A program made the translations under genes and the position numbers. Source: an uncultured Bacilli bacterium (GTDB lineage Bacteria; Bacillota_I; Bacilli_A; RF39; UBA660). Taken from it: a DNA stretch of 49,967 nucleotides. This document shows positions 40,219 to 49,967 of the stretch, in pieces. The notes under the pieces are model-generated. The model worked only from the letters and a program-made list of their open reading frames with translations. It did no database searches and had not been told where the DNA came from. Position 1 is the first letter of the stretch. Each line of letters opens with the position of its first letter. The stretch spans positions 1 through 49,967 of the forward strand of contig CALVRJ010000005.1 of the NCBI GenBank assembly GCA_944358545.1. Reading direction: 5' to 3'.

Positions 40219-40644
40219 AAATATGATAAGTTTACTACATATATAATTAAAGACGATGACAATTACTTGAGCAATCACTTTACAGATAAGGTCATTATAT
40301 GATAAAAGGGTTACAGTGACATACATAAATAACATTTCAATGATTAATGAAGATATTCTAGCTAAGAAAAAGTTAATTATTTCTTTTGCACGTTTAGTGC
40401 CTTGGGCTTTACTTTTAAAGACAAATTTACGATTTGTAAGATAGGCAAAGGTAACGGCGATAATCCAAGATAGAACGTTAGCAATTTGAATGTCAAGGGC
40501 TGTTTTAGCTGATAAAAAGGTACTTGTAAATATGGCGTAAGTTATAATGGTTACAACGGTAGTTAAAGCACCAAATATTAGGTAGTTAATAATTTCATCG
40601 TATTTTTTATAGTATTTAAGGGCTAAAGCATAATATTTTTTCAT
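40198..40644 (-). CDS. GtrA-family membrane protein
   Basis: 148 residues with four transmembrane helices and the GtrA pattern YLTNRKFVFKS near 65. GtrA-like proteins are thought to flip bactoprenol-linked sugars for glycosylation of surface polysaccharides or teichoic acids. It overlaps the prepilin gene upstream by one base (TAATG), so the two are co-translated; whether it serves pilin glycosylation is inference. Confidence 0.85.
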   Translation of the reverse strand: MKKYYALALKYYKKYDEIINYLIFGALTTVVTIITYAIFTSTFLSAKTALDIQIANVLSWIIAVTFAYLTNRKFVFKSKAQGTKRAKEIINFFLARISSLIIEMLFMYVTVTLLSYNDLICKVIAQVIVIVFNYICSKLIIFKKEENH

Positions 40645-41039
40645 TATTCACAAACCTCACTAGATGAGCACGTACTTTGATAGGTGTATTTATATTGATT
40701 GTTTGATGCTTCATATGTTATTTTAACGCAGCCATTCATTTCTTTATCTGTTGTTGGATCGATTATTTTTTTATCACTTTTTAAATATCCTTCTTCTTTT
40801 AAGCATTTTAAACTTTTTTCAATTGATTCACCGTTATTTAATGGTAATTTTCTAGTGTTTTCTGTCCCCCATTTACGAGCAGCATCAAGAATACTTTCTT
40901 TTTGTTGTTTATATGCATCTTCTCTTGAATTGTTAATAGTGTCATTAATAGTCGGAACAACGATGGTAGCTATTATTCCTAATATGACGATAACAGCTAA
41001 AAGTTCAATAAGTGTAAATCCTTTTTTCATATCTTTCAC
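40644..41039 (-). CDS. type IV pilin-like (prepilin) protein
   Basis: 131 residues. Class III signal: leader MKDMKKG, then FTLIELLAVIVILGIIATIVVP with Glu at +5. A small soluble domain contains a C-terminal Cys cluster (STCSSSEVCE) plus CLKEEGYLKSD and MNGCVKITY, patterns seen in minor pilins. Third pilin-like gene of the window (see 18533-19525), but with a different soluble domain. Joined to gtrA by TAATG. Confidence 0.85.
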   Translation of the reverse strand: MKDMKKGFTLIELLAVIVILGIIATIVVPTINDTINNSREDAYKQQKESILDAARKWGTENTRKLPLNNGESIEKSLKCLKEEGYLKSDKKIIDPTTDKEMNGCVKITYEASNNQYKYTYQSTCSSSEVCE

Positions 41040-46976: not shown

Positions 46977-47002
46977 ATTATCACCTAACTCTTTCTTTTT
47001 AG

Positions 47003-47032
47003 ATTATAACATTTTTAGCTTGATAAAGACAA
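47003..47032 (-). promoter_or_regulatory. promoter of the small membrane gene-mutM-pyk operon
   Basis: Minus-strand TTGTCT (47027-47032), 18 bases, TATAAT (47003-47008) with an extended TGT. Confidence 0.75.
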
Positions 47033-47257
47033 GTAAATAGTTGACGTAAAATAATGGTTATTTTTGTCATTTGTCTTGAATTATTTTTTGCTTATGATAA
47101 ACTAATTTTAGTGGGTTAATCCCATTATATTGTAACATTTTGTTTTTATTATTTTTTTCATGTATTATATAATAGTTAAAGAATGTATTAAATCTTTCTC
47201 TCATTATTATAACTTTTCTTAACTTTCCTAATCTATATATATATGTTACAATAGTTT

Positions 47258-47281
47258 AGCAGACCAATTGGTCTGCTTTTT
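47258..47281 (+). terminator. orphan intrinsic terminator on the plus strand
   Basis: Perfect AGCAGACC-AATT-GGTCTGCT hairpin with a T run. The nearest plus-strand gene upstream ends 2.8 kb away, so it must end a short unannotated RNA or act as an insulator. Read on the minus strand there is no T run. Confidence 0.7.
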
Positions 47282-47288
47282 GTATGTT

Positions 47289-47315
47289 AAAAAAACTAAT
47301 ACTTTGATATTAGCT
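47289..47315 (-). terminator. terminator of the ATPase gene
   Basis: AGCTAATA and AACTAATA-type imperfect arms around TCAAAG followed by a T run on the minus strand. Confidence 0.65.
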
Positions 47316-48550
47316 TATTTTAGGTCTTCTTTATTGTATATAAAGTCAACAATGTTTACATTGTGAATGCCATCAATGTTTTTTTGGAAAATCATATCTG
47401 ATGTAAATAGATATCTAGGATACATTTCTTTTATTTCATAAAATGGTTTATATTCTCTTTCTTCTGTTTTTTCATCATCAATATTTTTAGCTACTTGAAT
47501 ATAGAAGTATTCATCTACGCCACGTCTGGCAATAAAGTCACATTCAAGGTTTCCAATTTTACCAACGCTTAAGCTATAGTTTCTACTTTTTAGATAAGAG
47601 AATAAAACATTTTCTAATACTGGTCCATAGTTAATTCGATTATCGGTGTTTAAGGCATAATAGATACTTAAATCAGCTAAATAATATTTTTTTTCACCAT
47701 CTAATACTTTTTTTGATTTGATATCAAATAAATCACAAGGATAAATTATTTTAGCATTTTCTAAAACTTCAATATATGATTTGATAGTTCTTCTATCAAC
47801 TAAAACATTTTTATCTTTGGTTAAATAATTATAGATACTGCCAACCGAAATGATTGAACCAAAGTTATTAACGACAAATTTTTGGATTACTTCAAATAAT
47901 GATTTGTCTTTGATTTTTTTATGATTTTTTATGTCTTTATCAAAAATCTGTTCAATAATACTTTTTGTATATAATAGTTTATCTTCATATGTATCATATT
48001 TTAATGAACCGGGAAAACCACCCTCTCTTATAAATTCTTCAAATTCATGATATATATTTGTATCGATTTTTTTGCCCAAAAATCTTTTCATATCAACATA
48101 TTCATAGAAGTTCAAAGGAAGCATTTCGATTTCAATGTATCTTCCGGTTAGCTTTGTCACTAGTTCACCAGATAACAAATACGAATTAGAGCCGGTTAAA
48201 AAGATTGAAAAATTTTCCTCTTCTCTATAAGCATTTATTACTTTTTCATAACCAGAAACATTTTGAACTTCATCGATAAATAAATATTTAAAGTCATTAT
48301 CTACTACTAAACTATCGATTGTCTTTTCTAGCTCTTCTGGAGTTTTTATATCTTTATAAGCTTTACTATCTAACTCAATATAAATGATGTTTTTATCTTT
48401 TATACCTTTTTCTTTTAATTCTTCAATTATAGTTTTTAGAAGATAAGATTTACCACATCTTCTTATGCCAGTTATAACTTTTATCATAGTATCATCATAA
48501 AAACCTCTGACTTTATTTAAATAATCTTCTCTTTTATATAATTTTTCCAT
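47315..48550 (-). CDS. AAA_14/DUF4143 family ATPase
   Basis: 411 residues. P-loop ITGIRRCGKSYLLK near 26-39 and Walker B KYLFIDEVQNV near 92-102, sensor region FSIFLTGSNSYLLSGELV, then the DUF4143 C-terminal domain with a degenerate nuclease-like pattern (ECDFIARRG near 348). The family is abundant in gut and archaeal genomes, often in accessory DNA, and its function is not settled. Strong promoter with an inverted repeat just upstream. It lies in the more variable end of the window, next to a phase-variable surface gene. Confidence 0.88.
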   Translation of the reverse strand: MEKLYKREDYLNKVRGFYDDTMIKVITGIRRCGKSYLLKTIIEELKEKGIKDKNIIYIELDSKAYKDIKTPEELEKTIDSLVVDNDFKYLFIDEVQNVSGYEKVINAYREEENFSIFLTGSNSYLLSGELVTKLTGRYIEIEMLPLNFYEYVDMKRFLGKKIDTNIYHEFEEFIREGGFPGSLKYDTYEDKLLYTKSIIEQIFDKDIKNHKKIKDKSLFEVIQKFVVNNFGSIISVGSIYNYLTKDKNVLVDRRTIKSYIEVLENAKIIYPCDLFDIKSKKVLDGEKKYYLADLSIYYALNTDNRINYGPVLENVLFSYLKSRNYSLSVGKIGNLECDFIARRGVDEYFYIQVAKNIDDEKTEEREYKPFYEIKEMYPRYLFTSDMIFQKNIDGIHNVNIVDFIYNKEDLK

Positions 48551-48569
48551 AGTCTTTTCACCTGATACA

Positions 48570-48598
48570 ATTATATACTTTATTTAAATTTTTAGCAA
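48570..48598 (-). promoter_or_regulatory. promoter of the ATPase gene
   Basis: Minus-strand TTGCTA (48593-48598), 17 bases, TATAAT (48570-48575). Confidence 0.8.
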
Positions 48599-48599
48599 G

Positions 48600-48644
48600 T
48601 TATCGACCAGTTTTTGGTATATAAGTGTGAAAAGTGGTCGATAA
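48600..48644. repeat. inverted repeat upstream of the ATPase promoter
   Basis: Perfect 10-base arms TTATCGACCA (48600-48609) and TGGTCGATAA (48635-48644) with a 25-base AT-rich centre. It abuts the -35 box. There is no T run, so it is not a terminator; it could be an operator or a cruciform. Confidence 0.7.
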
Positions 48645-48669
48645 ACTAGTGTTTTTTGTGAATTATAAG

Positions 48670-48696
48670 AAAAAAACTCTGAATTTAATCAGAATT
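48670..48696 (-). terminator. terminator of the surface-protein gene
   Basis: ATTCTGA / TCAGAGT stem with G-T pairing, followed by seven T on the minus strand. Confidence 0.65.
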
Positions 48697-48703
48697 TTTT
48701 ATT

Positions 48704-49849
48704 TTAATTTTCTTTTTTGGTTACTCTTCTCATTACAAATACTGAGACAATTACACATATTATTCCAAGTACCGCAATTATTATACTACCGTAAGCAGAA
48801 GTTGATGGGACTTCAACTACCTCAGGTCCTTGATTATTATTGTTTTCTGTATTCCCATCAATATTTGTACTATCTGTTTGTTCTTCTTGATTTTCATTAC
48901 TACATTTATCTGATACTATGTAAGGATCGCTTTCTGTTCCACTACCACAGAATTTTACATCAGATTTTAAAAAGACTACTGGCCGTGGAGAATTATAAGT
49001 ATTACTATAAGCAACTCCAGCTGGACCAATATACACACCCCAATTATTTATTGCAGAAGCACCCCAAACAACTGATGAACTGTAACTGCTAATGTTATAA
49101 GAGGCATTTATTGTCCAGTAATATAATGTATCATTACTTCCTCTATCTAATAAATAATTATTATTGCATGAATCATAAACATTGCCTGAAGTTGTAGCAG
49201 ATGTACATAATGGATTTATACTTGCTTTAAGTATATCTGTTACATTAGCAAGTCCTACATTCCCTGTCCACGTATACATTCCTTCTCCTTGCTGATTTCT
49301 TTCAATACTATCTTGTGATGCATCATCTAAATATTCTACGGCTCCTATATTAAATGAATGAGATAATATTTGTTTTTTGGCAATTTCATTTATGTTATTT
49401 ACATAGTAATCATCATTTAAATATTCTTTTATACTTGAATCTTCCGTTACTGTTCCGCTTTGCAGATTACTTTGGGATTTAAATATTCCATCTACTGCAG
49501 CATATACGCCACACCCTCTTGACGGTTCTGTACAATATGTATTATTTTGAGTATGACGATGACTTCCATTATCAAACGGCATTTTGTCCAGTAAATCATT
49601 CCTAATTATTTTATATGTTCCATCAGCTTCTTTAGCTATTATTCTCCAAAGTTCTCCATTAAATTTTATATAGTTATTTGGGTTTTGTCCCCGATAAATA
49701 TATCTTCCTGACTCATAGCTATCTATGTAAAGTCCATCACCACTATTAATTGTATCTACATTTATTCCACCAATTGATACCGCTTTTACATTTATGTTAG
49801 GCAAAATAATGCCTAATATAAATAAAGTTATAATAATTATTTTCTTCAT
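48704..49849 (-). CDS. secreted surface protein with C-terminal VPSTSAY anchor, behind a poly-G promoter
   Basis: 381 residues. Signal peptide MKKIIIITLFILGIILPNINVKA, then an extracellular domain with IKFNGELWRIIAKEADGTYKI near 45-65, a Cys-rich region (YCTEPSRGCG), and RPVVFLKSDVKFCGSGTES near 300. This resembles the DUF6273-type domains of pilin-like and surface proteins. After a Thr/Asn/Gln-rich stalk it ends EVPSTSAY, a transmembrane helix and RRVTKKEN. Signal peptide and tail are nearly identical to those of the protein at 12062-13409, while the domains between are unrelated. RBS GGGAAT. Expression probably switches with the length of the upstream G run. Probably a ligand-binding or antigenic surface protein; this is inference. 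Confidence 0.8.
   Translation of the reverse strand: MKKIIIITLFILGIILPNINVKAVSIGGINVDTINSGDGLYIDSYESGRYIYRGQNPNNYIKFNGELWRIIAKEADGTYKIIRNDLLDKMPFDNGSHRHTQNNTYCTEPSRGCGVYAAVDGIFKSQSNLQSGTVTEDSSIKEYLNDDYYVNNINEIAKKQILSHSFNIGAVEYLDDASQDSIERNQQGEGMYTWTGNVGLANVTDILKASINPLCTSATTSGNVYDSCNNNYLLDRGSNDTLYYWTINASYNISSYSSSVVWGASAINNWGVYIGPAGVAYSNTYNSPRPVVFLKSDVKFCGSGTESDPYIVSDKCSNENQEEQTDSTNIDGNTENNNNQGPEVVEVPSTSAYGSIIIAVLGIICVIVSVFVMRRVTKKEN
48721..48833 (-). repeat. copy 2 of the dispersed anchor-encoding repeat
   Basis: Aligns with 12079-12191 over about 113 bases with about ten mismatches by eye. The two lie about 36.6 kb apart on the same strand. Confidence 0.8.
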
Positions 49850-49871
49850 ATGTATTCCCTACTTTCTATAA

Positions 49872-49890
49872 TGTACAATTTTATTGTACA
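49872..49890. repeat. inverted repeat overlapping the -10 of the surface-protein promoter
   Basis: Perfect 8-base arms TGTACAAT / ATTGTACA with a 3-base centre. It includes the minus-strand TACAAT -10 box, so it may be an operator or a 5' mRNA hairpin. Confidence 0.7.
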
Positions 49891-49912
49891 CCCCCCCCCC
49901 CAATAATGTCAA
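49883..49912 (-). promoter_or_regulatory. promoter with an 11-G tract in the spacer (candidate phase-variable switch)
   Basis: Minus-strand TTGACA (49907-49912), TACAAT (49883-49888), spacer of 18 bases of which 11 are a G run (49891-49901). Slippage of one G would change the spacer to 17 or 19. Homopolymer runs exactly between -35 and -10 are the classical layout of transcriptional phase variation. Confidence 0.85.
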
Positions 49913-49967
49913 CTTAAGAGGGGGGACAAATTTTAAAATGTGAAAAAGTCACAAAAAAACACCTTGA

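Follow-up and report, generated by a model that had tools for sequence, protein, structure and literature searches.

The locus considered here raises two questions: why eleven consecutive G stand between the −35 and −10 elements of a promoter in an AT-rich genome, and whether that promoter is native to the surface-protein gene that it precedes. The window, which is the whole stretch of 49,967 nucleotides analysed, is contig C5 of a metagenome-assembled genome (MAG) of 1.38 Mb, the organism's own genome, labelled G000.

The poly-G promoter and its gene

On the minus strand, 49912-49883 reads TTGACA, TTATT, eleven G, TG and TACAAT, an exact match to the original prediction, and the spacer of 18 proposed for the −35 and −10 elements was likewise confirmed by direct reading of the sequence. 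The promoter is situated 34 bp upstream of the start of the downstream ORF. The features of the promoter and the gene, all on the minus strand, are:

48704-49849, minus strand: surface-protein gene, 381 aa (ORF; weak DUF6273; AlphaFold)
49872-49890, minus strand: perfect dyad TGTACAAT-AAA-ATTGTACA overlapping the −10 (sequence)
49883-49888, minus strand: TACAAT, −10 hexamer, near-invariant at 24 sites (sequence)
49889-49890, minus strand: TG 5′ of the −10 (direct sequence reading)
49891-49901, minus strand: G11 tract, making up most of the −35/−10 spacer (sequence)
49902-49906, minus strand: TTATT between the −35 and G11 (direct sequence reading)
49907-49912, minus strand: TTGACA, −35 hexamer, from the terminal inverted repeat of a mobile element (sequence)

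The G run is as unusual as had been claimed. The G+C content of the window is 30%, it contains one C11 run (plus strand), no other run of G or C in it exceeding 6, and the expected number of G11 in the window was at most 0.0008 under Markov models built from the window itself.

The product had been described as secreted and tail-anchored, and an N-terminal hydrophobic segment, a C-terminal helix (residues 353-380) and a KK tail agree with this. The overall architecture consists of an N-terminal signal-like helix, one globular domain, a linker, the C-terminal hydrophobic helix and the KK tail. Matches to Pfam DUF6273 (E = 0.0095) and to the NCBIfam sortase-type surface-protein tails were below cut-off. 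The AlphaFold model was fair (pLDDT 78, pTM 0.75) and contained the helix at 353-380. Its sole significant Foldseek match was a large Thomasclavelia ramosa IgA peptidase structure (E 4e-7), which superposed poorly (rmsd 15.6), and no function is drawn from this modelled likeness. The domain family had 38 matches in the own genome and up to 82 in congeners, and a search for an orthologue of the window gene in the sister species returned only family-level homologues. Between YWTINA and RPVVFLKSD a hypervariable stretch (48974-49130, residues about 243-292) is bordered by conserved flanks and looks like the outcome of diversifying selection or the target of a retroelement; no template repeat or reverse-transcriptase motif of a diversity-generating retroelement was found in the DNA stretches examined. 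A scan of 47000-49967 against Rfam gave no match. Elsewhere in the window, 40644-41039 (minus strand) encodes a type IV pilin-like protein with an N-terminal methylation motif (Pfam N_methyl) in this small genome, and a similar pilin-like protein is encoded near an element end at G000:C7.

A family of promoters with G-rich spacers

G runs of length 9 or above occurred at ten separate places in the own genome, every one of them in a single promoter module:

C2: G12
C4: G12
C5 (the window): G11
C7: G12
C8: G9
C15: G12
C18: G9
C30: G18
C42: G12
C53: G11

By chance, 0.02-0.9 G9 positions would be expected genome-wide under the Markov models built from the window, compared to the ten tracts observed. 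Further copies of the module with interrupted or shorter G runs were found on C6, C14, C39, C41 and C45, the last of these also having a long spacer (23 bp). Together with two sister species of the same genus, G001 (Candidatus Coprosoma intestinipullorum) and G010 (an uncultured Bacilli MAG), the own genome provided 24 distinct module sites from three species, and their alignment gave the consensus CCCCCT-N6-TTGATT-TTTCT-[G-rich, 7-14]-TG-TACAAT-NNN-ATTGTACA. In an exact search, the downstream half with at least 7 G was present in 3 of the 44 genomes of the genus. The module had no match in a scan of viral contigs.

Across the 24 sites the hexamers TTGATT and TACAAT were near-invariant, and the spacer ranged from 14 to 23 bp with a mode of 18 (eight sites) followed by 19 (five sites). 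Spacers were pure G runs, G runs interrupted by A, C or T, GT repeats beside a G run, or A8G7. The upstream half CCCCCT...TTGATT was the commoner, CCCCCTCTTAAGTTGACATTATT being the rarer among module members. The modules lie upstream of surface-protein genes, whose products belong to a few families and are either secreted or anchored in the membrane. Each member thus has conserved halves upstream and downstream, separated by a G-rich spacer prone to slipping. The proposal that a promoter with a poly-G spacer precedes a surface-protein gene in the window gains strong support from these 24 related sites with their conserved hexamers and variable G-rich spacers.

The module is not used by every member of the surface family, as a tandem upstream copy of a leucine-rich surface-protein gene on C2 (L021:5861-6010) is without a G-tract promoter; the same region is AT-rich and contains ATTATAAATATTATATTTATAAT and repeated GACAT boxes. 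Several genes behind G-tract promoters contained early stops or frameshifts (L038, L044, L049, L124 and L118), and these are possible pseudogenes or a possible second layer of variation.

The original prediction did not include the dyad over the −10. Its general form is TGTACAAT-NNN-ATTGTACA, and at most of the 24 sites, in all three species, the arms were conserved and the centre triplet varied (AAA/AGA/GGA/GAA). Transcription would start about 7 bp past the −10, so that the dyad gives no hairpin in the transcript, which favours a protein-binding operator as its likeliest role. The −10 of each downstream half lies inside this operator-like dyad. Since such a dyad is common to the family, its genes may share one regulator besides any local switching.

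The −35 hexamer and the end of a mobile element

The sequence upstream of the G tract is not unique in the genome. A search with 49901-49967 revealed eight long copies in the own genome, seven of the eight at contig ends. A 63-bp repeat, here named B, was 100% identical at seven contig ends and 97% identical at C13. The corresponding features in the window are:

49891-49900, minus strand: ten G fitting a 10-bp target-site duplication of the element (sequence comparison)
49901, minus strand: last base of the element, being one G of G11 (sequence comparison)
49901-49924, minus strand: 24-bp module CCCCCTCTTAAGTTGACATTATTG, the last 24 bp of the element, 24/24 identical at three other sites
49901-49963, minus strand: 63-bp terminal inverted repeat, forming the L end of an insertion element present in several copies (repeat search; two inner flanks)
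49964-49967, minus strand: first bases of the L-end inner flank, at the contig end (common to the C31, C46 and C53 ends)

Behind the common 63-bp repeat two different inner flanks were found, L (C5, C31, C46, C53) and R (C7, C8, C13, C23), as expected of the two ends of one element. The element extends past the contig end of the window; its body and transposase were not found in the genome bin, where contigs end inside the repeats. The B repeats are scattered over several contigs, and in one case both sides of a single insertion could be recognised: C23 and C31 flank an element copy in the signal sequence of a surface gene, and each carries the 10-bp target duplication GCTATGCGGC. Closing this gap restored the start of the surface protein, and its first 55 residues are identical to an intact G010 paralogue. 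The site is coding sequence with no G run, and its duplication sets the element end as ...TTGACATTATTG.

The other insertions have a different setting. On C7, C8, C13, C46 and C53 the A-half is followed by its G run and then the element, and in the window the element is followed by G10 and the downstream half. In total, six or seven insertions could be distinguished, all but one at G tracts of the promoter module; by a crude uniform model, five of six insertions at G tracts would arise by chance with a probability of about 4e-17. The far side of the window insertion is missing from the assembly. A candidate partner is C8, for which the duplication would be GGGGGGGGGT against GGGGGGGGGG in the window, one G apart, and this gap could be due to slippage or to wrong pairing. 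When the neighbour gene of C8 was used to search for the empty site, the matching locus in the sister species had no G-tract promoter. On C13 (L031:4786-5090) the slightly diverged R end (97%) has the A-half and a C7 run on one side, while its other side resembles the tail of a gene for a leucine-rich surface protein, and this copy is an apparent remnant left by deletion.

The arrangement in the window may be traced as follows. The insertion element would have transposed into the G run, duplicating 10 bp as it did at C23/C31, and the repeat end TTGACATTATTG would have created the junction element-TTGACA-N5-G11-TG-TACAAT, with a consensus −35 and a spacer of 18, from which transcription may proceed. 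With its −35 being the end of an insertion element, the promoter at 49883-49912 is a transposon/host hybrid and not the native promoter of the gene. The earlier reading is thus supported in part: it stands as regards a poly-G promoter of a surface-protein gene, whereas a wholly native unit is unlikely.

An argument for native origin comes from CCCCCTCTTAAGTTGACATTATTG. This module is also found at G000:C6:14764, G010:C12:17592 and G001:C23:8159, in three species, where it forms the upstream half of a G-tract promoter and the remainder of the 63-bp repeat is absent. G010:C12 is orthologous to G000:C6 and shares its upstream DNA; the left boundary of these halves is CCCCCT, as in the TTGATT type. 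A TTGACA-type upstream half is accordingly native at these three sites, and the −35, G11 and −10 in the window could be a wholly native, plain phase-variable promoter to which the upstream repeat is incidental. This is distinctly unlikely, however, as the 63-bp repeat, which is matched in full at six further contig ends, takes in the −35 and ends exactly at the G run, and the same repeat end is found inside coding sequence with a 10-bp duplication.

Recombination would be another route to such junctions, with crossing over at the G run and B as one end of a promoter segment that inverts or shuffles. Three junction types (A-G-R, B-G-R and A-G-B reversed) do meet at the G run. The same B end is, however, also present in coding sequence, where there is no G run and 10 bp of target are duplicated, and an insertion element accounts for the occurrence of both L and R inner flanks behind a single inverted repeat, which leaves this explanation very little probability. 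An inverting promoter was considered as well and judged unlikely in view of the coding-sequence duplication.

We consider it probable that the G tract serves as spacer in a promoter which belongs to a family of surface-protein promoters in a Candidatus Coprosoma-like gut Bacillota and which has been rebuilt by a transposon. The likeness between the element end and the native upstream half has either of two origins: the element copied the native half, or old insertions became native halves. Through this likeness, insertion into a G run rebuilds the same promoter layout and does not destroy it. The element has a strong preference for these G tracts, and its insertion would probably swap the upstream half and leave the gene expressible and tunable by its G number, which suggests a benefit of the mimicry at the element end. 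More tentatively, and at somewhat less than even probability, the element homes to G-run spacers with a repeat end that copies the host's upstream half, so that insertion gives a stronger −35 and keeps switchability; it would then be a promoter-preserving, possibly domesticated transposon that acts on a bacterial contingency system.

The full-length repeat was not found outside the own genome in a genus-wide search, only the 24 bp being present in two sisters, and the repeat end had no match in viral contigs and no real match in plasmids or phages. Subgroup IS4 of the IS4 family has direct repeats of 10-13 bp and the end consensus -AATR--------WTW (PMC2266710). The 10-bp duplication falls in this range, and the terminal bases CAATA...TTA fit the consensus in the form -AATR--------WTW---- at 7 of 7 positions (chance 0.004, with ten consensuses compared; IS4Sa also fits, 3/3). 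The element is therefore like the IS4 family in duplication length and terminal bases, whereas it differs in its 63-bp perfect inverted repeat, the family's repeats usually being short, and in its targeting of poly-G promoters, none being recorded for the family in PMC2266710. Membership of subgroup IS4 would also call for a DDE transposase with a YREK motif. With no transposase recovered and an unusual 63-bp repeat, subgroup IS4 is a lead for the element and not an assignment. The ISAs1 family was rejected as the source of B, the ISAs1 element of G010 ending in TATGGCAATCGCATAAAAA, unlike B. An ISAs1-family insertion sequence with 23-bp inverted repeats is located on G010:C7 (L166:4883-6126) beside a LysM gene and near a C8-type locus.

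Three G-tract promoters of G010 have a different upstream repeat of about 75 bp (...GGGTACTTGACCCCCTCTTTACATTGTCTAAAAAAATGATAACATCCC) directly 5′ of the −35, probably a second mobile element landing upstream of the same promoters. Its sites, all at contig ends, are:

G010:C5:1-107 (L047:1-107)
G010:C15:32065-32159 (L048:65-159)
G010:C9:46521 to the contig end (L068)

Spacer length, assembly and related systems

The spacers differ at related sites and include GT and A repeats, from which slippage-driven phase variation at the G tract is plausible. A gain or loss of G would alter the −35/−10 spacing gene by gene and give a mixed surface in the population. Differing spacers between fixed hexamers are what is expected of a loosely held, slippage-prone spacer, the differences being between genes and species and not between cells or strains. 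The orthologous pair also has different spacers, GGGAGGGAGGGG at C6 against GTGGGGGTG at G010:C12.

Alternatively, the G-rich spacer is a fixed structural or regulator-binding feature, for instance through the stiffness of G-run DNA or through base pairing to the C5 upstream, and does not switch in length. Five intact tracts of the own genome (C2, C4, C7, C15 and C42) were all G12, which could mean either a fixed length or smoothing of the consensus; the interrupted spacers are mostly 17-19 bp, and the upstream C5 can pair with the G run (predicted RNA fold z = −3.15). The range of 14-23 bp, the differing microsatellite units at related sites and the differing spacers of the orthologous C6 and G010:C12 nevertheless make a fixed spacer unlikely.

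The MAG is a short-read assembly in which G lengths are unreliable. The C30 end (L028:3971-4047) runs through G18 into poly-A/T and a corrupted A-half copy, which is sequencing garbage, and given such garbage after a homopolymer the tract lengths in the MAG count neither for nor against switching. This end, together with a window contig whose own end is a k = 77 branch point exactly 66 bp from the tract, is also what would be expected if the length of G11 or the junction were a short-read artefact. The contig ends of C53/C46 and of C38/C13 have exact 77-mers in common, indicating a k = 77 graph in which an 11-bp run alone is unable to join unrelated sequence, and the junctions are thereby supported. 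The half-sites are furthermore found again at many loci and in the separately assembled genomes of two species, and an artefact is the least credible of the explanations considered. The last 77-mer of the window contig is G11 plus 66 bp of the element. Since the contig stops at a branch point, another path continues differently, implying a longer tract, another copy or a sequencing error.

In porA of Neisseria meningitidis, poly-G between the −35 and −10 controls the promoter (van der Ende 1995, as related in PMC3899988). The window promoter resembles it in having a G homopolymer as the −35/−10 spacer of a surface-protein gene, where one-base changes are predicted to tune transcription. Going by that account, switching was shown for porA, whereas for the present family it is predicted; there are also many promoters per genome here, with a common upstream box and an operator-like dyad, in an uncultured Bacillota and with an element-derived −35. 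The vlp genes of Mycoplasma hyorhinis have promoters with a variable repeat in the 5′ regulatory region (Yogev 1991, as related in PMC3899988). As far as that account goes, the likeness is in a multi-gene surface-protein family with a repeat-controlled promoter for each gene and combinatorial expression. The vlp promoter repeat is poly-A, whereas the present promoters have a G-rich repeat, a dyad that overlaps the −10, and insertions of a mobile element.

Hybrid promoters borne by insertion sequences are known, for example in the IS6/IS26 family, where an outward −35 in the element end pairs with a −10 of the host. The element end described above would provide an outward −35 in the same manner, but the spacer is here the G-run target itself, consisting of duplicated DNA, and the end of the element is the same as an upstream half native to the host. 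In a limited literature search, no insertion element was found described as inserting into tracts of this kind and restoring the promoter.

Switches with poly-G spacers have been described chiefly in pathogens, Neisseria among them. The presence of an entire family of such promoters in an uncultured gut Bacillota with a small genome suggests that combinatorial surface switching takes place in ordinary gut life, and such switching would be readable from metagenomic long reads. A further idea is that the transposon targets the switch itself and that its end rebuilds the promoter, which would explain how it can insert again and again upstream of genes that are expressed without costing the host much.
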